A DNA stretch of 64,000 bases from Galerina marginata (Eukaryota; Basidiomycota; Agaricomycetes; Agaricales; Galerinaceae). Location of the stretch: positions 620,001 to 684,000 of the forward strand of contig JAECYW010000016.1 in assembly GCA_023014335.1 (NCBI GenBank). The letters are read 5' to 3'. The position numbers and the translations under genes are program-made. Shown piece after piece: positions 4,606 through 54,707 of the stretch (position 1 is its first letter; each line of letters starts with the position of its first letter). The notes below the pieces were generated by a model. That model saw nothing but the letters and a program-made list of their open reading frames with translations, made no database searches and was not told the DNA's origin.

Positions 4606-6624
4606 CTAAAACTCGAAAGAGTGATCGAACCACATCTCCCAATACTCTTGGTCCTCCTCAGTCGCCGCCGGCCGAGGGTCATATTTGACCTTGACTCCAA
4701 TGTCAACACCCAGACACCAACCGTTCTGAACGTTAAAGACTTCTTGTTTGTACCCGGCCTTTGTACCCTGAAGGAACCCTTTCAACTCTGTAATCATAGG
4801 CCACATCCGCGGGGCTTCGTATATGTTCCACTTCCAGAACAAATCGAGCTTTAAGGCGCGGGTTTGTGGATTTAACTTACAGCCGGGTTCGTTCGCCTTT
4901 CCTCGCACAGCGGGTTCAGGGTGATGATGCACAAGTACCGGGGTCGTAAAATTCGACTGGGAGTTGGAGTTCGTGATATCACCAAACGTAGCGCGCGATT
5001 GAGGAAGAGACGGCGGAGATTGAGGATCTTGGCAAGGAGATAAAGATGCAGCCCGAAATCCATCCAGCCAGCGCGACTCGACCATTCCTTGCACATATGG
5101 GATGTAGGTCTGAGTCTGGGGCCCTATTCGCGGCAGGTCGAGCATCAGAAGTTCCAGATGTGGGACATAGTACGACAGCGCCCTGAGTTTGCTTCCAGTT
5201 CGACTAGCATGATTGCCAGAGGCGGAGGGAGGAATGGAGTCTTCCTCGAAGTGGTCTAGATGGGGAAAACTGGGTGAGTGAAGATGAGTTTCTCTTTGGT
5301 ATCCATCTTGAGAAGGAAAGAGCAGATGGAGGCGGAGCTTCTTGAGCTGTGGGGTCGTCCCCAGGAGATGATGGAGGCCAGGTAAAGAAATGCAACTTCC
5401 TCGAAGAAGGAGAGCGTCGAGTGAAGGAAATAAGGCACCATCAAGGAGGTATGGGAAGCAATGATCGTCGTTTGTGTCGTCCAAGACGAGACCGAGCTCC
5501 TTCAGGTTGGGAAAGACGGTGACGGTGGAATTAATACTTGTGCGAAATGGCAGGGGGTGAGAGTCGATGTTGATGTCGAGCAGGAAGTGCCCCTTTTGGA
5601 GGGCAGAACACTCAGTGAGAAAGCGATGCCATTCCGCTCGCGTAGTCTCGAGACGCAAGAAAAGATGGGTGAGTTTCTTCCACATAGTCGGGCCAAAACC
5701 CCCAGCGACGGGGCGGAGGCTCGCAAAAGGGTCGAATAACACGCAGTTGACGACACAGAGCTTCCTCAGTTCGGGCATCCTCTCGAATGGGACATGCCAC
5801 AAATGATTATCCAACACGACCATTTCCTCCTCATCCGCTCCATTAGAATCCAAAACGAGCGACTCGAGGTCGGAATAATGTAAGGTGGGATAAGTGTCCA
5901 GGAGAGTGGCAGATGGTAGGAGTGGCCGGTCGGCCAGAATGGAATGGTATTGCGGGTCAATATCTAGATAGCGTGCACGCGAGATGAGGTTAGGAAGAAA
6001 AGATATATCTCCTTCCGCGGAGTCGGCAGACACCGGTTCATTTTGAAGGTAGTCCCCCAATGTAATGATATCCCCAACGGCCGAAGGCGCTACCAATTCT
6101 GTGCGAAACCTCAAGCGCAGAGCAAGAGAATTGCCTCTAACCTTTTCGGCCCACCACCGAAGGAAATCCAGGTCTTTCTTGCAGATGTTTATCGATTTTT
6201 GCAGAGAGAGAGTCCTGGGCAAGGAAATAGGCTTCGAGTAATCGTAATCACTACCGTTGTCGTCACTAATAATTCCATTCGAGTCTGCGTCGGTGCCGTC
6301 GTTCCATTCAGTTGGTAATTCTGTGTCCAGCTCCCGAATGACAGCTGTATGAAATAGGTAGTTCCACAGCTGCGGCGTGGAGAAGGCTGTATTACGCCAG
6401 TACGAGCAAATGTGGCATAATGTCATCGGCATCGATGCCCGGATTGACGAATAATCGTCGTCGCCAGATTTGATGGCGGATGAAGGCTGTAAAAAGGCAA
6501 GGCGCTGGCGGAGGGGCGGAAGGCACTCCTCGAAGATCTGGCCTAGGATTTCCGGTGGGAAAGAGTACACCTTGGATGCCGTGGCACTGGTAGCTGTGAA
6601 TGGTATAATCTCGAGGAGTGGCAT
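4606..6624 (-). CDS. F-box-like protein, intronless, 672 aa
   Basis: A single open frame encodes 672 residues. Residues about 20-37 (SFPPEILGQIFEECLPP) and about 66-90 (MTLCHICSYWRNTAFSTPQLW) match the F-box-like motif that is very abundant in Agaricomycetes. In such proteins it recruits SKP1 and a leucine-rich-repeat-like C-terminus recruits a client. The middle has irregular leucine-rich stretches such as ELRKLCVVNCVLF and LKKLRLHLLFP that could form an LRR solenoid. The stop lies at 4606-4608. No introns are needed, unlike the neighbouring F-box gene, and the two proteins are not obviously recent duplicates. The client protein cannot be predicted. Confidence 0.85.
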   Translation of the reverse strand: MPLLEIIPFTATSATASKVYSFPPEILGQIFEECLPPLRQRLAFLQPSSAIKSGDDDYSSIRASMPMTLCHICSYWRNTAFSTPQLWNYLFHTAVIRELDTELPTEWNDGTDADSNGIISDDNGSDYDYSKPISLPRTLSLQKSINICKKDLDFLRWWAEKVRGNSLALRLRFRTELVAPSAVGDIITLGDYLQNEPVSADSAEGDISFLPNLISRARYLDIDPQYHSILADRPLLPSATLLDTYPTLHYSDLESLVLDSNGADEEEMVVLDNHLWHVPFERMPELRKLCVVNCVLFDPFASLRPVAGGFGPTMWKKLTHLFLRLETTRAEWHRFLTECSALQKGHFLLDINIDSHPLPFRTSINSTVTVFPNLKELGLVLDDTNDDHCFPYLLDGALFPSLDALLLRGSCISLPGLHHLLGTTPQLKKLRLHLLFPSQDGYQRETHLHSPSFPHLDHFEEDSIPPSASGNHASRTGSKLRALSYYVPHLELLMLDLPRIGPQTQTYIPYVQGMVESRWLDGFRAASLSPCQDPQSPPSLPQSRATFGDITNSNSQSNFTTPVLVHHHPEPAVRGKANEPGCKLNPQTRALKLDLFWKWNIYEAPRMWPMITELKGFLQGTKAGYKQEVFNVQNGWCLGVDIGVKVKYDPRPAATEEDQEYWEMWFDHSFEF

Positions 6625-30800: not shown

Positions 30801-32448
30801 AGACGCGACCCAATAGCTTCCTAAGTGAAGTTAAATTGTCAATACTTATGTATACATCAAGATATAGTTGGAAATTCAGGACCAACGTTCAGAACACTGT
30901 CAGGAATCAAGGCATAGGAAGAGGACAAAAAAGGGGAAGACTCAATCAGATATAGAACATGCTGTCCTTCAATTTTCCTCCGACGCCGTCGCGCCATGCC
31001 TTCTGAGCATCATTCATGATAGATTTTTTGTCATCACTGGAGGCCGGTCGTGCGGTATTGCTGGTGCTCTGCAAAAACTTGTACAGGTAGCATCTGCCGC
31101 GCTCGCAGGCGAGATGAGCGTAATATGCAGGAGAAACCAGGCTAACAGCTTGAGTGGCGCGCGCGAACATATAGCTCACGTCGTTCGTCAGAGCTTGAAG
31201 TTCGTCGGCCTGGAATGCGTTGTCATCATGGAGGACGTAGTAGTGCGTGGGGCGAGCTGTGCCTTGAAGGGCTCCGTGTGCTTCAAGGGTTGGATTAGTT
31301 TGATACTGCGGCGGAAGAAACGATTGAATCACCTTGCAGGAAGAAGTCAAAATTATACACGGAAGTTACTCCTCGATCAACAACAGTTCCCGGCTGAGGG
31401 TTGCCGTTTTGGTCAGCATCAGCTTCTTTAAGGCCCCATTCGGGATCCCGGTTACGATCCGGTTAGGTTAGGTTAGGTCTGGTTAAAAAATCGTTAACCA
31501 TTCGTGATGAGTTATCTCGGTTAGTCACGGTCAAGTCACAGACCATGTGGGGAGGCCGCAACGCACATCAGCGGAGATCACAACAGGCACCATGTTCGGA
31601 TCGGGCTCAAGACCGCCCAAGTCGTGTTCGAACATCGTCGGCGTCATGTCCAACGTCGCCGGCCTTGATTTTTGTCTTATTCATATAAAGCCATAGAGGG
31701 CTCTCGTAAAATTTTTAAAAGAGAGATAATCTTATTTTTATTAAGGACTAATCTAATATCTTATTGCGCTTGACGGGGACTTCATTTTCGAGGCTATAGT
31801 CGAGCTCATCGTTGACAACAACGAGTCGGGACAGCGGGAATAGCATCGGATCAGTCTGGGAAAGGTGATGAGCTGGCATCAAAACATTCTGATGTCAAAT
31901 GATGGCCGGCAAAAATGTGACAACCTGATCTGGCCAAACCCAGCCCAACCAGGTGTTTCCGAACGCTGATTCTGTTGGGTTTACGGCCAAAACTGACCTT
32001 TTCGGTTGGGTTACGATTAGTGTTGCCGGAGCTCGGCTCGGCTTGGCTGAGCCATGGCTTTTGAGCCCTGGGAAGCCAAGCTGAGCTGAGCGGCAACGAC
32101 CCTGAAGCTGCGGATGACAGCCAGCTCCAAGCAGCGGCTCAGCCACTCAAGCCAGTCGCTTGGTGCCTGATTTGGAAGTAGGTTGGATTCAAGGAATTCC
32201 AAGGTTCTGCCGCATTTAAATGATTCTGTAGACCTTAGAGGCTACAGTAATGCATTGTTTTGGCCAAATTTTGTGGTATGCTTGGAGTTTTAGCCTTCGT
32301 TCACCGAGGTGTAAATTTATTGTCACTGTATGTGACAGTGATGCACTGTGATGGTCTGATGTCACACTGATCCGCTCCCCGCTGCTCCGAACCTCCCTTG
32401 AACCCAACTTGAATCTCTCTTGCTCGAAAGCACAATACAACTAAATAA

Positions 32449-32687
32449 TGTTGGAATATTGCGTGGTTGTACGAGCATGCGCAATGCGCTGATGGGTACA
32501 CGCGCGCCGCGTGCTATTTATCAGGTGATTATTCCGTAGTCTACAGTACATAAAGTAGTCTACTTTTGTTTCCACCCCCCATCCGTTTGCCCTCTTGCCG
32601 TCACAGAGGCCAACCGGAAATCTATATTTCTTGCTTTCCCCTCGCTGATCTTGAGATGATCACGCGCTTGCAGATTTGATTTCAACA
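32449..32687. repeat. Left LTR of the inner retroelement
   Basis: This is the 239-bp LTR with TG..CA ends and a short terminal inverted repeat (TGTTG / CAACA). It includes a direct repeat of TAGTCTAC near 32538-32566. Confidence 0.9.
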
Positions 32688-33649
32688 CAAACGGATACCT
32701 GTCCTCTCGGGTGGGTCAGTCTCACATACACCCCGTTGCGACGCTCTCTGGTTCGTTCGCTCGCCGCCGCCGTAACTCGTTCACTCGACCTCTCGGATCT
32801 CGCTGGAGTTGAAGACTCGCGATTCGACGTCTCCCTGCCGGGCCGATTTCGTTTCCGATGCCCAAAGACAAGCCGCTTGCTCGAAGCGCACCCCGTTGAA
32901 GCCCTCGCGTGTCGACGCTGAGGCAGAAGAAGGCTGCAGAGCCGCTAAACCTGCAGAAGACGGCCCCGGAGCCGCTATTCCGCGGAGAAGAAAAGCCGCC
33001 GTCGAAGATCGGCGCATGTTTGGGACGAGACCCGCCGTTGACGATCGGCGCGCGTTTACGAGGACAAGTCGCTGTCGAGATCAGCGCAGTGTCGAAGAAG
33101 AAAAGTCGCCGTTGACAGTCGGCGCACGTTTAAGTCCTCAGGCTTGGAGGCACAATTTTTGAAGGACGCCGATTTCGAAGATTTTGATTGATTTTGTTGG
33201 GTGACTCAGAGATGAGTTTTGGAGGATTTCGAGGATATCTGCTGGCTGGAACCCCCCTTCCGAGACGCCGAAGAACGCCGCCCCGCGTGCGCGCCTATTC
33301 ACCATGGCCGACGCCCCCCTACCGCTTCGCTGGACCGTCAAGATTTTTTTATTTGCAGATTCTTTCACCGCTCGCTGCCTGCGACCCCCGTTGGATTGTT
33401 GTACCCCCTCCTCTTTGTTTTGACGCCATTGCTTGCCCTATCGCCTAAAATTCGCTTGTCGGAGCCCTCAAAGGCATGGACCATCGTCTGGATGTCGGAG
33501 ATTAGGATTTTGCATGGTTTGAGGGAGTGCTTTTTTATTCTCTTTCTCTTGAAGTTGATGGAGATTTTTATTGATTTTTATTTCATGTTTTCGGGACACC
33601 CTTTCGTTTCAGGGAGTGCTTTATGCACATTGCTTTGCTCGAGGGAGTG

Positions 33650-33888
33650 TGTTGGAATATTGCGTGGTTGTACGAGCATGCGCAATGCGCTGATGGGTAC
33701 ACGCGCGCCGCGTGCTATTTATCAGGTGATTATTCCGTAGTCTACAGTACATAAAGTAGTCTACTTTTGTTTCCACCCCCCATCCGTTTGCCCTCTTGCC
33801 GTCACAGAGGCCAACCGGAAATCTATATTTCTTGCTTTCCCCTCGCTGATCTTGAGATGATCACGCGCTTGCAGATTTGATTTCAACA
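33650..33888. repeat. Right LTR of the inner retroelement
   Basis: This copy has the same length as the left LTR and no mismatch seen by eye, which implies a recent insertion. Confidence 0.9.
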
Positions 33889-36800
33889 AATAATCTCAAC
33901 ATAAATCAACCTCAGGGTATCCACAAACAAAAATCTGCATAAAAAAACTCGGTAAATACAGTAAGGTCTACCTCCTTCCGTTTTAAGATACGAATGGTTA
34001 GCTCGAGCTGGCTAGCTGTGACTAAGCTGTCATTTTGACAGCTCGGCTCAGCTCCAAGCTCCCACACTGCCAGCTTTGGGCAAAGCTGAGCTGGAGCCGA
34101 GCTGAGCCGAGCTCCGGCAACACTAGTTACGATTTTGGCAGGGAAACCGAGCCCAAACCGGATCGTAACCGGGATCCCGAATGGGGCCTAATTGGGTAGA
34201 AACGGGTATGGTGACGCTTGCCCTTTGAATACGAGAAAGTGATTAACGATGCAAGGCAGGGCAAAGAGGGAGACAAAATCTTACACAAACGACAATTGTC
34301 ACAGCAGGACGATATTGACTTTCCAGTGTATCGAACGTTTGGCAAGCCAATCGGATGGCAGGAAGTTCTTCATCAAGAACGCTCTTAAACTGGGTCTGAA
34401 TACCACTGAGTATGCATGTGGCTGTCTCAATAGAGGAAACCCACTTCCGAAATGCCATCTCGATAAACAAGAATACGTTGGGGCAAAACCTCTTTGTTTC
34501 TGGCTTTAAATAAGCTCAGGCGTTCTCGCATCATTTTTTCTAAATTTACGACCAACTACCTCAATGAAAGTGAACACCAAGTTTACAATTGAATAGGTGA
34601 TATGACCCACCTCTTTACCCGATGCTTGAAGCTCCAGGCTGGCCGGATACTGAGTAAAGTCAGTTTTACAGCTGGCGACAACAGCGGTAATAGATGGGGA
34701 TCCATCCATGCTTTCCCGCCCAGGGTGCGTTACGTCGATACCGACAAGCATAGTTGGCATTTTCTGGAGCAAGGTCATATTTTTTGCAGCGAGTGTATGA
34801 CTGACCCGAATTAGATGCCGGCATAACGCCAGAGGGTAAGAAGAGGATGTACTTAACACCTCCCAACTTCATATTCAACTTCGAGCCGACGCTGGCAAAA
34901 TAGCGGGGTTGCCCTAAGCCAACTTAAATATGTCATATCGGTAACTGAATGGTACTGAATGGTTACCTTTCGCCCTCCGAATCAATGCTGATTGTACGCA
35001 CACACTTGCTAAGAACGCGTTAGAATTCGGATAGATGAAAACTGAATTGAACTACCGATGGCTAGGTCACCGTCGCAGAGATGTTTGACCCCAGAATATA
35101 CGGCTTTGTCGGTATTGGAGAGCAGAACCATAACCATGGAAGGCTTTTCACTGAGACTCACCAACTGTTGCCGAATAACTTCGATCGCAGCGGTCCGAGT
35201 TGGGTCAGTGGATACTGAGGGAGGTAAACGGGCCTCCAAAATAACAGGATCTTTCTGATCAATGACCATTCCACTAGCTCTGCAGCTGCTTGCGAATCCC
35301 CGAACGGTCGCGAGCAGATCCGGGTCGTCTGAGCCGGAAAACTCGTCTTGAGGCTGACCGTCCTTGATAACGAGCACTGCCCACCGACCAATTTTCGCAC
35401 CTTTAACAAACTTGGCACCCTTCGAATTCCAGCTCGCTCTATCGTCGAGTTTAGGTTCCCCTTTACTGTACTTTATAACTGGAGGAGGGAGAATGCGGCC
35501 TGGGACGACTGCCATCTGATTTTCGATGCTAATTCCAAAGGCTTTAAGTTGTTGAGAAACCCCGGGTTTATAACCGAGCGCATCAAGTCCAACGCCAGTA
35601 ATACTCGTTGCGTTTACTTGAGGTGGTTTAGTAGCAGCCTCGATCATGGCAGCGGAGTGTGCGTCGGTAAGTTGTCCCCGGAAAGGCTGCGCAGGCAGAA
35701 TCTCACACTGTTCGGCTGGGATGATCATGTCCCCACCAAGATTTACAAGTGGCAGTTTGGGATACCGCAAATGTCCTGTAAAAGGATGTAAGTCAGACGA
35801 TTTTTATAATGGCTTTGAACTAACTGTGGTCAAGATCAGCATCACTAAGCTTCTGTTTGCGAGATTTCTGCGAGAAAAGCGCCTTTACGATCCTATGTCC
35901 GAGATGTCGAGTCTTGACTCTGACACCCCTGACGAACGCAGACCGATTTCCTCTGAAGGCTGACTTCGTAAAAGCCACCATGGAGTCTGCCAGGTTTCCA
36001 GGTTTGTAAAAGGCTGTGGTGCACACTGCTCTCAACGTAGATCAGATACGGGACATGTGGGCAGGAAGGGCCGAACCATTGACGTTAACCATCAACCGAT
36101 TACGAGTAGGCCGAACCGAGGAATAAAACCCCTTCCAGGCCTCGAGACCTCCGCCCAAGTTGGAAGGTTGGATCGCCGTAGGGAAAAAGAAACGATTGCG
36201 TCCGACTATTGTTCCACCGCCAACAAAGCGATTCGGATGAGCTGAAAGGATGAGGTTCAAAGCAGATATTGTAGAGCTTGTATCAATGTCAGAGTGTTCG
36301 GGTTTTCCCGTCAGATACCTGAACGTCTTCAGTAAAATTTGAAACAAAGAAAAAAAATGGAAAGACTGACTCAAGAAGACCCTTTGTTTCGATATCCCGA
36401 ACATATTCAAGGGTCAAGGTATATACATTTCTGACTTGCACCTGCTCACCATCCTCCTCGTTATAGGGCACCGAGAACGAAAGAGATTTAGCAAGTTTCT
36501 TGGGTGAGATAAGTCTCGAAGAGCAATCATGAGCGACAGATCCAAAGAGTCCCGCCGTCTTCCAACCTGGGGATTGCTCAGCGAGCTGGAAAATACGCCT
36601 TTTAGTTCGCCTTGCGGCCATTGGAGAGATAGAGACGTCGTATTCGAACCAAGGACCTTTGGCAACCTTAACTGGAAAGTAATTAGCGTGCAATTTGATG
36701 GATTTTCCTAGGTTTCCGAACCCAGGCCGCAGCGTGGGCCTCGTGTTAGATGCAAGTTGAAGATCAATTTCTGACAACGAGGACGTGATGGCCTCACGAT

Positions 36801-37062
36801 GGCCTACATCTGCGCTGCTGGAAAGCCTGCAAAGAGCGAACATTAATTGAAAAACTACTTCCATTATAATCTTGTGATACCTTTCTGATCCTTGATGGAT
36901 TCTTCGAACGGTATACTCGCCGTTCGAGAGTTTGGAAATGTGATGACCACGGATTTCTACAATTCCGCGGTACGAATGAAATCTGCTTGGTCTGAGAACA
37001 CTGGAGGCCATTTCAGTAGCTAGAGGGCCCGAAATGCGTTCATTCACAAACAGATTGAGCAC

Positions 37063-38369: not shown

Positions 38370-41037
38370 TCAGTCCTCGCCCAAAAGCTTGCATTCAATC
38401 TCCACCGGAACGTCCTTGTGTGTGTACACCCTTAATCCAACATGGACCGAGTTCGGGTTGTCCAAGTCGAGCTTGATCTTACACATCTGGCGTATCATCG
38501 CAGCGTAGTCATCAGGGTCATCATCATCATCATCATCGTCGTCGTCGTCGTCCTCGTTATCATCGTCACCTGCAAATAAAGGTGGGTAAGAACTCTCGGA
38601 AGGGGGTCCGTTCTTGCTGTTGTAAAGAATCGTCTGGACGGAGGTTTGAGTGGGGGTTTTGGTGGTGGTAATAACGGTGCCGTCTTCAGCAACTTCGCGT
38701 TGGGGTTTAGTGGCGGGGTCTTCTTTGGGGTTCTTCTCGGCCTCGTACAGTACGGCGTCTTCTTCGAGAAGTTCATCTAAAGTTACTGGGAGGTGCTTGG
38801 CTTGATCACTTGTACGCCAATGTAAGTTTTGGTAACAATTTAGAAAATATACAGGCGTACTCAAAATTGAAATCTGGAAGAAATACATATTAGCCAAATC
38901 CCATGAAGCATTTAGAGACAAGACTTACTTAGAGCAATCGATTGACTCTTGGCACGCTCTGTCATAATTCTCGAGACCTTCCTCAATTGCAACTCAGAAA
39001 CTTTTTGCATATCCTAGAAGTCATATGAGAATACGGCAGTTGAGATAACAAAAAAAGACGCACCTTATTCTTGGCCAAGCGACGATTCAAGCGAACATAT
39101 ACAAGGTAGGTGCCAGCCTCCAACTCAACCTCGGCATTAACATTCGAGGCGTATATTTTGGAGTGCGCAACCTCGACGATGGGCTCCTTTTCTCCTTCCT
39201 TGACTAGTGCGAAATCCATGCTCCAAGAGGCTTTGCCAGCCAGGTCACGGTAATACCTTCTGTCCATCTGGGAGAGGACGACGACTGTTTTGGAGGCACT
39301 GGGTAGGGCGAACTTGACTGACGTGGACAGAGAATTTCAGCCAAATCCGCAGCAAAGCTGAAGAAATCGACTTACAAGACACATCATTGTAGGACCACGC
39401 GGCAGGGAGGGGTTTTGCCTTGACGCGAAGCCACTTCGACGACAGCTTCCAGCTGGAATCAAAAAGGATGGTACGATCGATTCGCTCGAAACACTCAAGC
39501 CAATCCGAGTCTAAGGATCAAAATAGAATAAGAGCTGAGAATAAAATCTAAAAGGAAACAGCGTACATTCCATGATGAACTGGCCATCGTCCCCGAACTG
39601 GTGCCCAATTTGAGGGAGAAGTTCCAACCAATCGTATGTCCACTCTTTCGAGCCATCCGACCATCGACCAGTCCATTCAGATTGGCCCCACGGGTTACGG
39701 AGAACCACGAACTTCTTCCCGTTGCACTCGACGGCGCGGAGGACAGAATAGGCGTGGTCTCCTATCAGACCTTGCACTTTGAGACTCCAAGCGCCGCTGC
39801 GAGTGGTATCGAGGCTGCCGAAGGAGCATCCGAACAGCCGGTCTTTGTTGGCACGGCTGAGCTCTTCGTGCCAGAAGCGTTCGGGGTTCAGGAGGTCCTG
39901 ATGAAGATATGCGATTGGTGAAAAGGAGACTATGAGATACAAAATATCCATACCTTAGTCTGCAACACGGTAGATACTCCGCTGCAAATTCCGCATCAGC
40001 AAAGCAAGGTAGGAGAACACATAAGACCCACGCACCCAGTCATGTCCGCAATAGCATCACATTCGTGTCCGCCTCGCAAATGCGAGTAATTTCCATGTAG
40101 CTTCGCGTACGCCTTTTCGATCAGGGGAACCCACGTCTCGCCAGTCGTGCCGGAGCTGGCGAAGTAGAAAGACTTGCCACCCTTGCGAGCGGATTTATTG
40201 TAGACGTCCTTGTCGTAGTGGTAGAGCTGCTGTTCCTCCGGTCTCAGGTCCTCGTATTTTGGGAAATTCGTGTAAACCATGCTAAAGTCGTGGAAAGGGC
40301 TGTTAGAGGAGCGCTGGATTAGAGCCGGTATGAGAGGAACATACTCATCAATGACGACGGGGACCCATGCGTGATCTCGGAAGAAGATGAAGCCATATAC
40401 ACCTACTACTTCGTCGCGCTGTGGGACGTAGGTAATGTCAGTGAAAGGTCGTGCGTCTCATCATTGTGAAGACTTACAGCAACGCAGAATTTCTCGACTA
40501 GCCCTGGGGCAGTGGACGCCGTGGCGAGAGCTGACAAGAACCAGCAGTCGTCCAACGCTCCTTGGACGATGTCGTTGGCAGATGCGCCATCGACGAAGAA
40601 CTGCGGTTTCTCAAATAACTGCGTGACTCGGTGAACATCTGAGGGGCTGAGGGGCTGGGTTTCGAACAGTCCATATAAGCATCGGCTTTTGTCGTTCTGC
40701 AGATCAAACTCGATATCTCTGAAGGCCATTCGTTAAGGTCGGAGAAAATGATTCAAGGAACGACGCACCTGAATTTTCGGTTGTTTGCTCGACACTCCTT
40801 CGCAATACGCTCAACCTGCTTCCTACAGTCATCGATGGCTGTCTGGAGTTCCTCCGTGACGAGCAATCCAACTTCTTGCTTCGGCGCAGGCTTCGGGGCT
40901 TGTTTCGCAGCCTGCTTGGCGATCTGTTTTGCGGCCTGTTTTGTTGCTTGCTTCGCCTTCTCCGTGTCGACTTGCTTTGGGCTTGCGACTTGCTTCGCGT
41001 TAGCCCCGGCCTTCGCAACGTTTTTCTTCTTCGACAT
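38370..41037 (-). CDS. Calpain-like cysteine protease, copy 1
   Basis: A many-exon gene encodes a calpain-type (CysPc) thiol protease. The N-terminus after MSKKKNVAKA is a Lys/Ala/Gln-rich repeat (KQAAKQIAKQAAKQ), probably a helix. The catalytic Cys is in VQGALDDCWFLSALAT, His in LIGDHAYSVLRAVE and Asn in VLRNPWGQSEWTGRW, so the triad is complete. The residue before the Cys pair is Asp where calpains normally have Gly (LGDCWF). A domain-III-like beta region follows (MDRRYYRD..VELEAGTYLVYVRLN). A C-terminal extension holds an Asp run encoded by GTC/ATC trinucleotides at about 38518-38565, then VHVGLRVYTHKDV. No EF-hand is seen, so calcium control is not assured. The ATG at 41037 lies about 55 bp below a TATA box. 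It is paralogous to, and head to head with, copy 2. Confidence 0.9.
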
Positions 41038-42326
41038 GGTGAGAGAAAGTGAATCAAGTGTCACTGTGTCGGTTCCCGCGCCGTTGGATGTTTTATACTA
41101 CTGGCCAATCTTGGGCGCTATGTTGTTCTCGACAAAGACAGATCATCTCGGCCTTTTGATATAACCACGCTTTGAATAGATAATCGACAGAAAAGATGGA
41201 AGGAAACCGTGTGGCTGTGGGCACTTAGCACGTTTCTGCCTGTCAAGCATGTAAACCCTACAGAAATGGGAGGGAATCCGGGATTTCGTTGTACACACCG
41301 GAGATCTTCAAGCTATAAAAGGCATGTTTTCCCGCCGGGTCCGGACTTATCTAGTCCCCTTGGAGTCCCCAGAGAGGATCAATCTGATGCTTTCTGGCCT
41401 ACGGAACTTGAAGATAGTATTTTCAGTTTTCGATTCAGAATTTGATTGGGTCTCGACTCTCCTAGCAGCTCGCCTATTGTTGGAACCTCCGAGTCTCTTG
41501 CACTCTCCTGGATGGTCCCTTTTGTGCGATTGAAATATACGAATCTTATTTTACCCAATTGAACATATCGTCAAGATCCAACGAAGTATAATCACAGTTG
41601 GTCATTGAAGGTCCTTATATTAATTTATCAGACCTTTGGGTTCCTTTCGATAGGTTCTTTGTTCAGCGCCCGATCATTCGTCCGTCTGTCTATCTATGTC
41701 ATGTACACTTCAAGTATTGATGTGCAGTGACACTGCAGCCTCAACAGCTTATGAAACAAGCGCGCAAAATACAAGGATCGGTCCAGTTCATAGCAACCCA
41801 TATCAATCGAACAGCGCTGAAACCTTGTGATCCACCAGATGCCCACCGGGCAGGGTTTTGGGCCCTCCGTTTGGGCGCTAGTGTATACTTAGTACAACAA
41901 TTAATTCATTTACCATCAGGAGGTTGGACTTGCCTTTGTTCTACATATGATCTGAATGGGAGGAAGTCCCGGGGTTCCTACCCTTGATTGGCGCACATCT
42001 TGGACCCACCCTTGATCGGCACAGAGTAAATTTTGATTATCTAGGATCATGTGCGCAAAAATTGGCGATTTCAGAGAATCCGGGGACACCATCTCTGCGA
42101 CGATTCCTATTATCAACAATCACAGTGCTAGATTCTGGTCCCTGGAAGACACACAGCCTGATGGATCGTCCATTTATGCACTTTCCCATCCTGTCAAAGA
42201 TATTTCCGTCTTCTCAATACTGCGCGTCCACCTTATAACGCCTAGAGCTTTTACTCTGGCAGAAGTCGCTATTCCCACTTGATCTTACTGCTCCAAGACC
42301 CAACCAAGACCTTACACATTGCTCCG
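41038..42326. promoter_or_regulatory. Shared 1.29-kb region between the divergent calpain genes
   Basis: On the minus strand GTATAAAAC (about 41090-41099) is a good TATA box for copy 1. On the plus strand CTTATAACG near 42233 is a weaker candidate for copy 2. No gene was found between them. Confidence 0.45.
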
Positions 42327-45162
42327 ATGACGCGACGCCGTAATAGAGGTACTCCAAAAGCGACGGATGCACCCCCACCCGCTGCTCCAAAAGAACAAGT
42401 CGGACTCCTTGTCACTGCTGAACTGGAGGTGGCCTTGACAGAATGCAAGCAAAAAGTAGAAAGCATCTCGAAGACGTGCCGTGCTGCAAATAGAAAGTTC
42501 AGGTGGGTCCTCCCTTTCTTTATCGGTTCGGTCACTCATCTTCTTCATTCTCCTCAGAGATAGCGAGTTTGATCTCGAAAATGATCCTGCATCATGCCTA
42601 TTCGGATTAGAAGTCGACGAAAACGACGAAAACGAGGGCCCGTCAGATGTCAGGCGTGTCTCTCAGATATTCGAAAACCCCAAGTTCTTTGCCGATCGCC
42701 CCAGCTCGAGCGATATCAACCAGGGAGGTTTGGGGGATTGCTGGTTCTTATCTGCGCTCGCGACCATGGCGACTTCTCCTGGTTTAATTGAAAAACTCTG
42801 TGTAGCAGTACGTCTTAGGCCCAGATTGCTGTGGAACTTGATTTTACCTGCTTTATTTCCAGCGCGATGAGGAAGTCGGCGTCTATGGGTTCATTTTCTT
42901 CCGGGACAACCGCTGGGAAACCGTGATTATCGACGAGTACGTACCCTGGACTCTAGCCGCGACCTGATCCTGACTGTAAGAACCACAGCCAATTGTTCTG
43001 GTCCATCCCGAAATTCGAAGAACTCAAGACTGAGGAGCAAAAATTGTACCATAACGACAAAGACGTTTATAATTCCATTGCACGAAAAGGTGGAAAGGGT
43101 TTACATTTCGCGAGGTCTGGTACGGCTGGCGAGACGTGGGTGCCACTTATTGAAAAGGCGTACGCGAAATTACACGGGGACTTCGCGTCCTTGGATGGAG
43201 GGTTTATGTCCGAAGCGATCGAGGATCTCACTGGGTATGTGCACAGCCTTCTCCCATTATATTTCGGTCCTGAACGCATCTTAGTGGCGTTTCCGTCATA
43301 TTTAACACTGGCGTAAGTGGCGTCCTCGCTAAATGTCCAACCAATAACTCACCACATTGCACTCTGCCAGGATATTCTTGATTCCAATCGCTTCTGGAAC
43401 GAGGTCCTTTTGCAGGCCAATGATAACACGCACCTTTTCGGAGTAGGCTTTGACGATCTTGACGAAGTGCGAAGTGGAAACGATTCCGCGACCGTTCAAG
43501 GGCTCATTGGGGGCCACGCGTATTCCATCCTCCGAGTAAAGGAGTGTCGTGGAAAGCGCTTTATTGTCCTCCGCAACCCTTGGGGAAAATCCGAATGGAC
43601 AGGCCGATGGTCTGATGGGTCTAAGGAATGGACTGGAGAATGGCTTCAGGTTCTCAAGGAGCTCGACCATGAGATGGGAGACGACGGTGAATTCGTCATG
43701 GAATGTGGGTATAGTACCCCAGATATGGTTTTACGAAATCCCACTTATGCCCATTCAAAGATTCTGATTTCTTGGAAACCTGGGAAACAGTCGAGCGGAC
43801 GACAATATTTGACGCCAGCTGGGTCATGTCGTCCCACTGGCTGCGCGTTCCGCCGAAGCCACTGGAACACGCTTGGGGGTACGGGGAAGCAGTTTGTACG
43901 TTATTTCGCGCTTACCGTATCAATATTCGTCACTGAACTATCCGAATCAGTCTACTTCACTCTTCCCAAGGCATCGACCGCCGTGATCGTCCTCTCCCTG
44001 CTCGATGATCGGTACTTCAAAGGTCTCGAAGGAATCGTCGAACATAACATTGATTTCGCCGTGTTCAAGAGAGACACGCGGGAGTGGAAAGGGGAATCTG
44101 TTTCCGCACAATTTTGGCATAGGAGGGTTTCTTGCCAACTTGAGCTTGAGGCGGGTGACTATGCTGTTTATGTGAGTAATTTTAGAAGTCAAAATTTGAG
44201 ATTTGGTCCCTTACCTTTTCCCTTCCTTTAAGCCGCGAATTGACCGTTCAGAAAGTAAGGAGAAGGTACGTCCTTTGAAATCCAACCTTTTTTCCCCCTC
44301 GTTTGTTGATATACTCTGTGTGTTAGGGAGAATTCGATACCAAAGTGAAAAACTGGAGCAAACATAAGCTTTCTCGCGTCCTGACTGAAAGAACCCAGTC
44401 CAGATCGATTGCCGCTAGTACGTTTCCCTTGCTACTGTAACGCATGGTCAGGGTTATTGAAGAACCTAATTGTTTTAGACTATGATATCAGGTAATTCAT
44501 GGTTTCTGTCGCTTTGTTTCCTAGTAACCCACAAAACCATTAGTTCCAAGAAAAAATTCTTACCTCTTTCCCTTTCGGACATTGTCGAGTTCGACTTACA
44601 AGAGCAGGAAGAGGAGGAGGAAGACGATACCAAACTCACTAGCACGACGACGATATCGGAAGAGACTAAGACGAAGTCGAAGAAGAACGGATCTACTACC
44701 ACTATTACCACGACGATCGTCACTGTCAAAGAGTTGAAGACTTTGACAGGCGGTGAAGAGGAGGAAGAGGAAAAAGAGGACCCATCGAAGGAGGGCGAGG
44801 AGAAGACCGACGAGGAGAAGAAGCCCGATGACGACGCGGAAAAGAAGCCCGATGGCGAAAAGCCCGACGGCGACGCGGAAAGTGCAAACGGACTGGTTGC
44901 TGGGCCCGGCGACATTCCCTTCCCTTTCCCTGGCATGGGTGGCCGTGATGGGACGTATACGAAACCATCCATTACCGGCGAGGACGAAGACGAAAATCCT
45001 GTATTCATTGGTCTCAAGGTCTACACCAAGAAGGAGGCGGTGGTTGTTGTCAGTGGCCGTGTTCGGGGCGAGCCAGAGAAAGACGACGACGACGACGACG
45101 AATGGGAAGATGAGGCAGAAGACGGAGATGACGGAGATGAGGATGAGGATGAGGACGAGTGA
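42327..45162 (+). CDS. Calpain-like cysteine protease, copy 2
   Basis: This is the paralogue of copy 1, with the same order of domains and similar intron positions. A coiled N-terminal segment (VGLLVTAELEVALTECKQKV) is shared almost word for word with copy 1. The catalytic Cys is in the canonical NQGGLGDCWFLSALAT, His in LIGGHAYSILRVKE and Asn in VLRNPWGKSEWTGRW. A domain-III-like part follows (STAVIVLSLLDDRYFKG; CQLELEAGDYAVY). The C-terminal tail is very acidic with Glu runs and Lys/Asp/Pro repeats, then a conserved VFIGLKVYTKKEA also seen in copy 1, and ends in Asp/Glu runs. The N-terminus lacks the Lys/Ala repeat of copy 1. The start at 42327 (MTRRRNRG) is the first ATG in the first exon. 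A C-terminal intron near 44470-44580 is not firmly placed. Confidence 0.9.
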
Positions 45163-45980: not shown

Positions 45981-47348
45981 TCAAGCAGGCATCCCAACAC
46001 CATGATGCGAGCTCTGCGCGTTCCCGCTGCCAGGATCAGTCAAACTAACCCCTCCGAGCTGGTTGACAAGCTGCGGGAAATACGAGTCTCCCGCCCCCCC
46101 AGCAGCAGCACCAACCACGTCACGGTGCCCGAGCGCCGCACCCGGCCCAGGCGTTGTTTTCTTGGGCAGCACCCACGACGGCGTCGAGGAGGACTGCGTC
46201 GGGCTCTGGCCGCTGTACGACCCGCTCGTACCCGGACGGACACCGCCGTATGAACCGCCACTGCCGGCAGAGGTTGGGCTGCCTCCAGGGTGTTTTGTCG
46301 CAGTGTCGATGCCGGAGGGGTATTGGTTCGCGTATTGGGCTTGTCCGGGGCCGGAGTCTTGGAGCTGATAAGAAAGCGGACGCTGCTGCGGTTGCTGCTG
46401 GACAGGAGACGCGGCTCGTACCGTCGTGGTGATTGCGTAGGCAAGCTCACTCTCCGGTTGTGCCTGGGGTTGAGCTTGAGCTTGAGCCTGGGCCTGGTAG
46501 GATTGCTGGCGCTGCACAGACTGCTGTTGTTGCTGAGCAGCATATCCGTCCTGATGCTGCGCCTGCGGGCTGCTCGGTGCCTGAGCCTGAGGCTCCGTAA
46601 CCCCAGGGATCGACAAGAAATAAACCGACCCAGCTAGATCCTTCCCGCCCTGCGCGTAGTACTGTGCCCACGCATGCACGTTCGGATCCGCGTAGGTGTA
46701 CGAGGGGTCGTATGGGAAAGGAGGTGTCCCAGAGATGGGCTGCTGGGGCTGGGGCTGGGGTTGGGGTTCGACCTGCGCCTGTGGTTGGGGCTGAGCCTGA
46801 GCCTGAGCCTGAGCTTGAGCTTGGGGTTGCGCCTGATTCTGAGGTTGCGAATAAACGGGAGTAGCAGCTGCACTGCCCGCAGGGGAAACCGCTTGCTGAA
46901 TCTGAGGGTCGGGCTGAACCTGAACGGGTTGCTGCTGCTGGGGTTGAGTTTGAACCTGAGGCTGCTGGTGGACGGGTTGCTGCTGCTGTATGACCTGAGG
47001 CTGCTGCTGCTGCTGCTGCTGAACCGGTTGGGCCTGAAGTGGCTGCTGCTGGGCTGGCTGAGGCTGGAGCGGTTGCTGCTGAATAGGCTGTTGCTGAACC
47101 GGCTGTTGCTGAAGAGGCTGCTGCTGAATCGTTTGTTGTTGTTGCTGAACTGGTTGAGCTTGGAGAGGTTGCTGCTGAATCGCTTGTTGTGGCTGTGGCG
47201 TCTGCTGCTGCTGCTGGACAGGATAAGGCGTCGGGCCTTGCTGGGAGTACGGCGCATTCGGCTGATACCCGCCTTGCGGAATTCCATACGCTCCATTAAC
47301 AGGAACTTGCTGCTGCTGCTGCTGCTGCGCCTGTTGTTGTTGTTGCTG

Positions 47349-47379
<31 letters not shown>

Positions 47380-49783
47380 TGCTGCTGCTGAGCAGCATAC
47401 GCCGCCGCCGCCGCCTGCACCTGATCTCCATACCCAGCCGGACCAGCACCCGGCCCAGGCTGAGGACCAGCATACTGCTGGATCTCCGGTGCTGGCTGAG
47501 GCTGCGGGATGCCCACCGGCCCCATATTGTACGCGCTCGCAGGGCCAGGATACCCCCCGTACCCAGGCTCGTAACCAGCTGCTGCTGCTGCAGCGGCAGC
47601 AGTGTTCCACCCATAAGGCTGCGGTTGGCGGCCTGCCCCGCGCGAGTCTGGACGGCCTTGGTGGGGCGGGTACTGGGATGGGCGGAACGTAGGTTGGTCG
47701 TAGACTTGAATGGGTCCAGTTAGTTTTCGGAGTGAGCATAGATGGTACAAAGGACGGCTTTACCTCCAGTGTGCCGAGCGAGACTCTCCTCCATCATCCG
47801 ATCAAATATTGTACGAGCGCGGACGAACGTCTCGTTCATCGATACGAGGTCGGCTGGGGATAAGATTGAGATTGATAAGATATCGACAACCAACCAATCA
47901 GGACAACAACAACAACAACAACGGCGATCTTACCTCGTTTCTGGCTATACTTGTCGATCAGTTTCACGATCTTCGGGCGGAGGGCCATACTTGATCGATA
48001 GAGTTCCTGTAAGGGACGTGCATCAACGACGATCAGTTACTTTACTCAACCCCGGTCTCAAGAGAAATAAGAAACGAACCTGAATCTCCTCGTTATCTGC
48101 TAAATTATCTTTAGCAGGATCCAGTGCCCTCAGCATGTTAAGCAGCTTCTCGACGTTAACAGCCTGCGCGAAAACAGCGGCCTCTTTCTCAGCCTCGTTC
48201 GCCAGCTCAGCAGCTGTGGGCTCTGGCATTGCTTCCTATACAACAACGTAAGAACGATAATTCATAATCCACGGATGAGATAAGACATACCACATAATTA
48301 ACAGGAAAGATCCCCGTACGCCCTTTCAGCTGACCACGCCACCAGTCTTTATAACCACGATCAACGACTTTAATAACATCCCCCTTCTCAAACGCCAGCT
48401 CTCCAGGTTCAGTCGGCTCAAAAGTGTGCAAAGCCCGGACACGGGTAACGATATTGCCTCCACCCGCCATCGAAGATACCGAAGCCCCCGTGGGTGCAGG
48501 TGCGATACTAGGAGCAGCCGAGACAGCAGATACCGGTATCGGTGTGGCGGCAGGAGCAGGAGCATCCGATAGCGAGGACGATCGGGAAGGGATAGCATGC
48601 TGCGGATGTTGTGTCTGAGTCTGCGGCTGTGAGATCTTCGACTGCTGCTGCTGCTGCAGCGCCTGCTGTGCCTGCTGGTACTGCTGCTGCTGCTGCCGTT
48701 GTTGCGCAGCCATGCTCGCGGGGGACGGGGTGCGCGCTGGAACGTACCCGCCTCCGCCGTATTTGGGTGCTGCGAACGGGTGGGCGGTCGACGAGCTCGA
48801 TGATGACCCGGATGGTTTCTCTCCTGCTCCTCCTCCTGAGCGGCCTGCTCCTGCACTGCTGCTCGAGCCCGAGGCACCCGCCGCGGACGACGAGCCCGAG
48901 CCTGATGTGAGACTGTACTTGGCCCACTGCGAAGGTCCGCCGCGGTCTTGCATCGACATTTCCAGCACCCGCTGCAGCTCCTCTTCCTCCCTTCGACGCG
49001 CCTCGTCATCCACATTCGGTGGCGCTGGTTCTGATGGTCCTTCGAATTTGTAGTCTGCGAAAGTGACACCGTTAAATAACATAACAAGAACTAAAGAACT
49101 AAGAAAAGACTCACTTTTAGCTTTGAGATTATTGTAGCACTCTTCCATAATACCCAACGTCTCGTCCTTCTCAAACTCAGACGTCCAGAGCGCAATGAGC
49201 CCTAACGCTCTCCGACGCACTTTCTCATGGGTGTTCTACGATATAAATCAGATGAGCCAACGAGCCTAAAAACCAACGAGACCAGAACTAGAACAAGGAT
49301 GACGCACTCGATCAGTGATGAGTTTCTCGAGGCCCTGGGTGAACGCCCTCGATGCCAGCTCGCGATGGATCTCGATGCCCAGGTTCTTGCTCAGCGACTC
49401 TGTAAGCGAGAGCGCATACAGCTGCACGTTGGGATTCCGGTGTGCGAGACGCTTCAGAATGGCGGCGATGGCGGAGTGGGCTCTGGAATTGCTGCGTCAG
49501 TATGGTTCTGAACCTCAACAACACAGACAGCAGCCTCTGCTGCCCGACAGCAATTTTCTGCTGCTGCTCCTCGACACCAGAACTCTACGCACCCAGACTG
49601 TCCTTCTTCCTGCACCTTGTCGCACAAGTTCAATATCAGCTCCCAGTTTTCGCTGGTGAGGTTCTCATCAGTCGTCTTGTCTATAAGAACCGATATCAAT
49701 ATGATGATTCCACATAATTAAAGGTGCAAAATGAACTCACTAACGATATCCTCATACTCCGTAGACGTGCCGCCGCCAAACAT
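45981..49783 (-). CDS. HSE1: HSE1, ESCRT-0 subunit (STAM orthologue) with long Gln-rich tail
   Basis: HSE1 binds ubiquitinated cargo on endosomes with VPS27 and starts multivesicular-body sorting. Domains run in the family order. A VHS domain ([20 protein letters not shown], then [20 protein letters not shown] and [20 protein letters not shown]) comes first. A ubiquitin-interacting motif ([17 protein letters not shown]) and an SH3 domain ([20 protein letters not shown] to [12 protein letters not shown]) follow. Then comes a GAT-like helical part ([38 protein letters not shown]). The last large exon (45981 to about 47710) adds over 500 residues rich in Gln, Pro and Ala, including a near-pure Gln run at about 47310-47395, far longer than the yeast tail. 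At least six short introns are present. The first exon is tiny and begins [14 protein letters not shown] at 49783. It is divergent from MMS2. Confidence 0.92.
47310..47395. repeat. CAG/CAA trinucleotide tract in HSE1
   Basis: On the minus strand this is an almost uninterrupted run of CAG and CAA codons, broken by one or two Ala codons. It encodes the longest polyglutamine tract in HSE1. Trinucleotide tracts of this kind are usually length-variable. Confidence 0.8.
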
Positions 49784-52670: not shown

Positions 52671-54707
52671 TCAAACAGTGGGATACGAATTCAAGAAACC
52701 AGGAAGAGTAGACCCGCACAACACGTTGTCGAACGGATCCTGACCCGAGCCAGAAGGCGGGAAGTCGCGCGTGTTGACCGTAACAGCCCAGTCAAGCCCG
52801 TTCCACTGCGATTGTGCCCAAGTTCTCGTACCAGGTGTGCTACCTGAGCGAGCCAAGGTCCATTGGCCTGTGCCGGTAGGACGAGGACCTATACCCCAGA
52901 CCGCTTCAAAGGGTAAAGTGCTCAATACACCGGACTAAGGACAAGAAAAATCAGACTTACCATGCGTATGGATGAAATTCGCCAGCGTCGTAGCCGACGC
53001 CGCCAAACTCGCCGGGCCAAAAGCGTCTTCCTTATACATCCCATCTCCCCCAAAGATAGCCGCAATCTGCGTCTGACTCTGCGGCAGCGCCGCATTCAAG
53101 CCCGTATACACCGACTCCTGCGTGACCGGGTCATTCGCATGCGCACTAGGGCTCGTACCCCACTTCCTCACATCGTATCCTCCAGGGGTCAGGACGGCAC
53201 TCGAAAGGTAATCATAATACGCCATCCCCGTGACGTGCTCGACGAGGTAACTGAGGAGGAGGTACCCGTAGTTCGAATACGCGTATCCGCCGCCGGGGTT
53301 ATAGTCCAGGGTGTAGCGCGACATGTAGTCCACGATGTTCTTGACTGAGGCTGGGCTGGCGCCTGTGCCTTGTGCGATGGCGATGTCGCGCATGCGGTAT
53401 GTAGGATCAAAGCCAGAGGCTGTATCATTGAGGCCTCCGTAATGAGTCAGGAGTTGGTCCACGGTGATCTGCTGCAAGCGCGGGTCGGTCGTCTTCGTGT
53501 ACCCGAGGAGAGGATAGACTTTTGTAGCGGCAGTGAGCTTGTTGCTGTTATAAAGCGTCTGAACAGCCGCTTCCACAAACATTTTGCTGTTGCTCGCAAG
53601 GAGGAAGACGTCGTTGGGCGCTGTAGTGTGCCGTGTCGCCTCGCTCCAGGAGTATCCTTTCTGCAGAAGGATATTCCCGTTCTTGCCAACCGTGAACTGG
53701 GCCTGTCGTACACCATTAGTCTTCATCCATGCTTGCATTAACGCATCCGCTTGGGCACCAGCGGCTTGGTTGTTCTGGAACCCAGTAATGCTGCCCGTAG
53801 CTCGGAATGTTCGTGGGGTAGGAATATCTTGCGTAGCCCACAAAGCGGCATAGTTGGCGTTGGCTCCGGTACCTCCTCCTTGGAGGTGGATGATATACCT
53901 GCCAGCGGATAACTGGGTCTGGTACTCAGCCTGAAGATCGCTAGCCGTCATCGCATGCCTCGCGACCCACGATCCCACATCCGTATCGACGAACGCAGAC
54001 GAAATCAAGTGGTCCTCCGATACCGAAAGATACGACGGGCGCCAGAACGGTTTCGTAGTTTCAGCGTTGAACGTCGTCTGGTAGCCGCTGTACGATTGGT
54101 CGTACCAAGCGGTATATTTATCAAACTGGTCATTGAAGTACCAAACCCCACAATACCGTCGATCCGAAGCGGTGCCGTATTCAGTAAACGACTTGAGGAA
54201 ATACCGGTTCGCAAATCCATTATTCAGCTCCGTCGCGTACTGCGCGTTCGTCAGTCCGCATTTCTGATACCAATTAGTAACGCCGTTTTGTTCCATAACA
54301 CCAGCATACACAGCCGAGCTTGCTGGGCCCGTAACCGTGATAACGGTCGACACATACCCGTTCGGGGCATGCGAGTCGAAGAAGGACTGGTACTGCGCCA
54401 CGCTGGCTTCGTGGATCGCGAAATATGCAGGCCCGGAACGTTGGACCCATACAGCGGCATAACGGTGGTTAGGGGGCTGTCCGTAGGCGCTCAGTGAGAT
54501 CATCCGGTATCCGGATGCAGACCATTGGTTGAAGCTGGTCTGGTGCTGCGCGCCGGTTACGCCGTAGTAGAACTGCCATGCGGGAATACTCCGAGAGGAA
54601 AGAGTGGTGTTGGTGGGACCGGTTCGTTTGAGGGAAAGGTCGGTGGGAGAGGCGGTGCTTGTGGCGAGCAAGGAGCCTAGTAGGGCGACTAGGAGGTTGA
54701 CTTTCAT
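52671..54707 (-). CDS. Secreted polyglycine-hydrolase-like serine hydrolase, 659 aa
   Basis: Exons 52961-54707 and 52671-52903 join across a 57-bp intron to 659 codons. MKVNLLVALLGSLLATSTAS is a signal peptide. Residues about 43-292 contain five copies of a repeat of about 50 residues (for example YYGVTGAQHQTSFNQWSASG ending in YAAVW), the bacterial-tandem-repeat-like N-domain known from fungal polyglycine hydrolases. Residues about 310-659 form a beta-lactamase-like domain with S-x-x-K (Ser372-Asn-Ser-Lys375) and Y-x-N (Tyr477-Ser-Asn479). Characterised family members are secreted by plant-pathogenic fungi and cut the glycine-rich linker of plant class IV chitinases. Here the activity is inferred from architecture. 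A 5'-UTR intron (about 54733-54785) and a TATA box (near 54850) precede the ATG. A plain beta-lactamase-family esterase is the alternative. Confidence 0.88.

Follow-up and report, generated by a model that had tools for sequence, protein, structure and literature searches.

Is an Argonaute gene that has been cut by nested transposons a fresh casualty of the kind of element it restrains, or had the copy already diverged from its relatives when the first element arrived? The question is raised by a minus-strand gene in a 64,000-nt stretch of Galerina marginata contig JAECYW010000016.1 (the window, within which positions are numbered), where a three-element transposon nest of about 2.76 kb occupies 31429-34191 inside a coding exon. 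We read the locus as an insertional null allele of a derived Argonaute paralogue, with a probability of about 0.7; the allele is probably recent, and the paralogue was probably dispensable.

The gene is of the mushroom type and, after splicing by hand guided by conservation, spans approximately 37011 to 30946 in the following parts.

34189..37011, minus strand: upstream part of the Argonaute gene, 766 stop-free codons, with ArgoN, ArgoL1, ArgoL2, most of PIWI and the catalytic D, E and D
37011-36881, 36826-36371, 36318-36077, 36025-35825, 35775-35056, 35008-34967, minus strand: upstream exons 1-6
34913-34853, 34800-34611, 34555-34445, 34395-34285, 34222-34189, minus strand: upstream exons 7-11
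35776-35824, minus strand: intron 4, 49 nt, GTTAGT..TTTACAG, 10 residues upstream of its place in the paralogue C43
30946..31431, minus strand: downstream part of the gene, exons 31431-31333 and 31280-30946, 143 codons KEADADQNG...SMFYI, with the PIWI end and the catalytic His

Ten introns stand before the nest and one after it (47-62 nt), and every one is GT..AG and in phase; the start codon is uncertain, being 37011 or, following the G. marginata model, 36843. Apart from the nest, the hand-spliced copy is free of stop and frameshift across 909 codons, and when the paralogue protein P0002 was aligned automatically with splicing, 9 of the 10 upstream introns were recovered with zero frameshifts in the part covered. 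Eight of nine aligned intron positions match those of C43, intron 4 being the displaced one and intron 1 remaining unaligned. The stretch of intron 4 is coding in the G. marginata model, which the window sequence cannot be (stop, +1 base). A stop plus frameshift at 35804-35820 was considered as damage and rejected, since it arises only when intron 4 is read as coding, while the spliced GTTAGT..TTTACAG leaves an open frame. By profile search, Pfam ArgoN, ArgoL1, ArgoL2 and Piwi were found; upstream of the nest the Piwi profile (length 302) is covered from 2 to 204, downstream of it from 207 to 300. The MID region was recognised by alignment to AGO2 alone, ArgoMid being not reported by Pfam for the window Argonaute part and below cut-off in P0001, the G. 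marginata relative described below. N, L1, L2, MID and PIWI stand in order, as in an AGO-clade Argonaute, and neither the window copy nor P0001 gave a Pfam match to PAZ, the further domain of an Argonaute. All four residues of the DEDH tetrad are present, D, E and D before the nest and H beyond both nest and stop, so that the tetrad does not stand in one reading frame. The five 5′-pocket positions checked are intact.

The nest itself consists of the following layers.

31429..31431: TAA target-site duplication of the outer element, left copy
34189..34191: TAA target-site duplication of the outer element, right copy
31432..34188: outer element, apparently non-autonomous, terminal inverted repeat (TIR) GGCCCCATTCGGGATCCCGG..., PIF/Harbinger-like by its 3-bp TAA duplication; 641 bp minus the inner layers
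32018..34125: middle element, apparently non-autonomous, hAT-like, TIR TAGTGTTGCCGGAGCTCGGC..., with the 8-bp duplication GTTACGAT at 32010-32017 and 34126-34133
32449..33888: inner element, small non-coding long terminal repeat (LTR) retroelement, TRIM-like, TG..CA, with the duplication AATAA at 32444-32448 and 33889-33893

PIF/Harbinger elements are defined by a 3-bp TWA target duplication and TIRs, and the outer layer has the TAA duplication and 37-nt TIRs that are 97% complementary (31431-31467/34153-34189). For hAT elements the definition is an 8-bp target duplication with short TIRs; the middle layer carries 31-nt TIRs of 94% complementarity (32018-32048/34095-34125), and its 8-bp duplications are GTTACGAT here and TTTTTGAC around a sister copy of 663 bp at C14:869202-869864. 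The inner layer, 1440 bp in total, was called TRIM-like from its short TG..CA LTRs (32449-32687 and 33650-33888), its 5-bp duplication and its non-coding interior, classical TRIMs being shorter than 1440 bp; purine-rich GAGGGAGTG stands before its 3′ LTR. All three elements look non-autonomous because no long ATG open reading frame (ORF) is present: the outer and middle elements, for which no transposase search was made, have none of at least 60 aa in their separate pieces, and the longest in the inner element has 82 aa. As a separate observation, a telomere-like GGTTAGGTTAGGTTAGG run lies at 31461-31477, just within the left end of the outer element.

The proposed history would begin with a PIF/Harbinger-like transposon entering the coding exon and duplicating TAA; a hAT-like element would then have entered the outer element with duplication of GTTACGAT, and finally the small LTR retroelement the hAT-like one with duplication of AATAA. 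The last step has its natural empty site in the genome, since the C14 sister is without an LTR element exactly at the AATAA site. An outer-element relative with a TAA duplication was found at C34:2634359-2634855, and this family is sparse, the 20-nt outer end giving 9 matches at up to 3 mismatches (two of them the nest's own) versus 3 for a reversed control pattern. The inner family is commoner, with 14 matching interior pieces at eight or nine places, nest included. The C34 relative and a second one at C34:2666604-2667100 have their flanks in common but are oppositely oriented, at a distance of 32 kb, which suggests a large inverted duplication in the assembly.

What does the nest do to the reading frame? 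The codons for ...KRHHTRFYPI run up to the right border, and coding continues with KEADADQNGNPQPGTVVDRG beyond the left one, the borders coinciding exactly with the two TAA copies, and one TAA copy accounts for the duplication. Reading from the exon, the frame meets the following stop.

34127..34129, minus strand: first in-frame stop (TAA), after 20 nest codons

A read-through transcript would thus yield 766 aa plus 20 foreign residues, and the 143 downstream codons, which include the catalytic His and complete the PIWI fold, would be cut off. The first-pass annotation of this DNA, made from the letters alone, had described all of this correctly: an insertion in an exon and not in an intron, its borders, the residues on both sides, a stop about 20 codons inside, and the loss of about 143 residues with the His. 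It had also placed the stop in the duplication of the middle element. The stop does sit within the GTTACGAT/ATCGTAAC octamer, but, as read from the sequence, this octamer originally belonged to the outer element and is older than the arrival of the middle one; the outer element alone therefore already ends the frame, and the middle element was rejected as the source of the stop.

Splicing of the whole nest as one long intron would restore a near-normal protein, and we consider this very improbable. Single GT..AG pairs were scored; donors were taken between the beginning of the last exon and the stop, and acceptors as far as GTVVD. Seven frame-keeping pairs exist, and the best of them, 34158/31426, would add RPHSGSRLRS; its sum, however, is 4.1 bits, while none of the 42 introns modelled in four Argonaute genes falls below 7.9 (the matrix was built from the same 42, so that their scores are somewhat flattered), and its donor scores 0.7 against a minimum of 3.7. 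The required introns are 2733-2793 nt, compared with 44-65 nt for the modelled ones. By both score and length of these single pairs the nest was rejected as an intron. A pattern (regular expression) for the spacing between RFYP and GTVVD hit 44 of the 117 relatives described below and was not used.

The truncated protein is most likely non-functional, because its last 143 residues, the catalytic His and the PIWI-fold end are lost. That the cell makes a 786-aa product which works, without slicing, as a dominant or guide-holding Argonaute seems to us scarcely credible, although N, L1, L2, MID and most of PIWI are still open in the truncated frame: about one third of PIWI is gone (profile positions 207-300 of 302), the PAZ end had gone earlier, and truncated fragments of such a kind are usually unstable.

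An uninterrupted form of the gene is available for comparison. The closest relative among the matches listed is P0001 (GALMADRAFT_144328) of Galerina marginata CBS 339.88, which is identical to the window copy at 653 of 706 ungapped positions upstream (from window residue 44 on) and at 138 of 143 downstream. It is continuous through the insertion codon, reading ...HTRFYPIKEGDADQNGNPQPGTVVDRG, and represents a natural empty site. Since both flanking genes tested also have their best matches in the same fungus (F-box gene, 4606-6621, 90%; beta-lactamase-like gene, 52938-54707, 96%), on a contig as long as that given for P0001 (647,508 bp), P0001 is very probably the syntenic orthologue, so that the insertion would be private to the lineage of the window. 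Two Argonaute paralogues match G. marginata at 98.5% and 96.1%. The two LTRs are identical at 239 of 239 bp (95% bound on divergence 1.25%), and the C14 sister shows 3 differences from the hAT-like pieces in 432 aligned bases and 2 in 237, in alignments that overlap slightly at the duplication. Both comparisons mark the inner layers as young, as had been proposed for the lesion as a whole; LTR identity, however, dates the last, innermost insertion and not the first lesion.

Was the gene an ordinary Argonaute when it was hit, as the first-pass annotation had supposed? The comparison with relatives speaks otherwise. From 350 matches 120 were listed, and after removal of P0001, P0002 and P0009 the remaining 117 were aligned, giving 392 columns that are at least 90% conserved. 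Of these the window copy covers 370, departing at 57 and having gaps at 22 more, and P0001 departs at 57 of 367, while among the 117 relatives the median number of departures is 8 and the highest 47. Among the 364 conserved columns covered by both, 51 departures are common to the window copy and P0001, 45 of them with the same residue; being common with G. marginata, these 51 are therefore older than the nest. The sister paralogue C43 departs at 2 of 389 conserved columns and C42 at 34 of 392, C42 being likewise derived to a lesser extent. At intron 4 the window copy has lost the final codons of the PAZ exon, and the PAZ end is altered in P0001: of 15 residues in the PAZ-end segment, the window copy keeps 1 and P0001 keeps 9. 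When the 120 best of 350 matches were read by eye, P0001 was the only one without PF02170, and the relative P0077 is also short in this segment. A structure model of P0001 from 38 sequences (mean pLDDT 70.5; below 50 at residues 293-321, the altered PAZ end) is compatible with the loss, but is too weak to serve as an argument. When a tree of the upstream part was built with FastTree (123 rows, 697 columns), the window copy and P0001 shared a stem of 0.510, longer than any terminal branch (0.446 at most). The pair falls inside a Galerina clade with C42 and C43 (support 0.984), a closer pairing with C42 having a support of only 0.599. So the duplicate evolved fast, and part of PAZ as well as many conserved residues had been shed by the time its lineage parted from that of G. 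marginata CBS 339.88. The description of the rest of the gene as well preserved stands for stops, frameshifts and splice sites, provided that intron 4 (35824-35776) is spliced, and falls for the PAZ end and the conserved residues.

Such divergence, together with the long stem and the missing PAZ match, is what would be expected if the paralogue had already been a pseudogene, or unneeded, when the first element landed, the nest being a passenger in dead DNA. A further sign in this direction comes from P0001 itself, which skips the conserved PIWI stretch VNLEKMMRERLSLFKARNKEVLP and has KQRCFAQ in its place. In this region (window 34470-34555; P0001 residues 658-672) the spliced alignment needs a false-looking intron and a 1-nt shift; because KQRCFAQ resembles KQRGFAP, as another frame of the window DNA reads, a small frameshift is likely in the G. 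marginata assembly too, either genuine or a sequencing error. If two different lesions in two lineages were true, the gene would be dispensable. Against an already dead gene stand the 909 codons without stop or frameshift outside the nest, with which the P0002 alignment agrees for the part that it covers, and the catalytic and pocket residues kept in the window copy. The substitutions since the split also speak against it. The window copy and P0001 differ at 47 of 815 clean columns (42 of 672 before the nest and 5 of 143 after), and 10 of these changes fall on conserved columns, where 20.5 were expected (P = 0.0009). The clean columns omit two stretches with a doubtful P0001 model (19 of 834 columns, with 7 differences); when these are included, 54 of 834 columns differ, with 13 conserved-column changes against 23.6 expected. 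The same test gave much the same picture for C42 and P0009 (6 against 13.4 expected), and for C43 and P0002 it gave 0 against 5.6. That substitutions still avoid conserved positions speaks for a remaining, weakened constraint, and we regard a gene that was dead beforehand as an unlikely explanation. On the reading as an insertional null allele, the slicer tetrad and the 5′-phosphate pocket residues would have been intact at the time of insertion, under a constraint that had weakened but persisted.

The following points weigh against the null-allele reading. Rare splicing may occur, or a stable truncated product may exist, and the gene may have been non-functional beforehand, given its missing PAZ end, its stem of 0.510 and the probable G. 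marginata frameshift. The substitution test pools both lineages and works at the protein level only; no more than 12 changes are assignable to the window branch, 3 of these at conserved columns. When aligned to P0001 instead of P0002, the window copy requires two frameshifts (35804 and 34481), which we ascribe to the gene model of P0001. Moreover, the material is one assembly from a single strain, which may represent only one nucleus of a dikaryon. A second allele or recent duplicate of the locus was sought in this assembly and rejected, as only paralogue pieces of 66-74% DNA identity turned up; we infer that the living strain has no second intact allele.

The loss of this copy is to be seen against the other Argonautes of the genome, for which the first-pass annotation had proposed a search. 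Piwi matches, numbering at least 31 at exon level, fall by our own grouping into ten loci, nine besides the broken copy. The automatic spliced models of the nine other loci contain no stop. C43 and C42 are clean with close references and C40 is clean at 51% identity, while the remaining six models rest on references of 32-37% identity; two C41 models begin at reference residues 341 and 287, and C41:2130000 ends at 843 of 893. Single frameshift calls in C41:1589000 and C1:1383500 were not counted as damage, the references there having 33-35% identity. RNA-dependent RNA polymerase matches were found at seven places and RNase III at three, one with two tandem domains as in Dicer. Judging from gene content, a silencing system should be present and is probably not abolished, because the nine other Piwi loci and these genes remain. 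Of the proposal that a silencing gene has been inactivated by the type of element it restrains, what survives is that one Argonaute copy out of about ten paralogues is broken, and the finding is no demonstration of transposons disarming host silencing.

The target gene may be more interesting than the transposons, as a PAZ-deficient Argonaute with complete slicer residues, perhaps under parallel loss. It is conceivable, though on balance we doubt it, that Galerina had a distinct Argonaute type, which lost the PAZ end, kept the slicer tetrad and 5′-end pocket, was constrained for a time, and is at present disappearing from two lineages separately, the cause being the nest in the one and, in G. 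marginata CBS 339.88, a frameshift. A functional PAZ-less form, if such it was, would show how much an Argonaute can shed under selection. The locus also offers a natural knock-out whose empty site can be read in a close relative, and hence a route to the role of an extra Argonaute among about ten.

Two neighbouring features were noted in the window. A divergent, head-to-head pair of calpain-like genes adjoins the Argonaute gene (38986-41097, minus strand, and 42246-44228, plus strand); Pfam Peptidase_C2 was obtained from one exon each, the remainder being matched by eye in the translations. At 45984-47759 on the minus strand lies a stop-to-stop frame of 592 aa, in which Q, A and P abound and to which no Pfam profile matched.

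Nested insertions in exons ordinarily combine TIR and LTR elements with target duplications, the youngest being innermost. The Galerina nest has the same anatomy and is a new instance of a familiar event, not a new kind; its special interest lies in the target gene alone. Our literature search, chiefly of titles and abstracts among the matches listed, returned no work concerned with this locus or with nested insertions in an Argonaute gene of a mushroom. The nearest likeness is in Cryptococcus, where AGO1 is pseudogenized beside repeats in Cryptococcus sp. OR849 and lost in C. floricola (PMC11185503). There, too, a basidiomycete Argonaute is lost or broken and repeats are named as a possible contributor. 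In that text, however, the repeats "may have contributed", whereas in Galerina the sequence itself shows the insertions with their duplications and the empty site, and the gene hit belongs to a set of about ten paralogues. An inactivated Argonaute in a sequenced strain is also described for Candida albicans SC5314, which carries Ago1-K361 while most isolates carry a good Argonaute (PMC11047096). That case is a missense change in a central Argonaute that abolishes RNA interference, whereas in Galerina a nested insertion has struck a redundant, derived paralogue in one strain.

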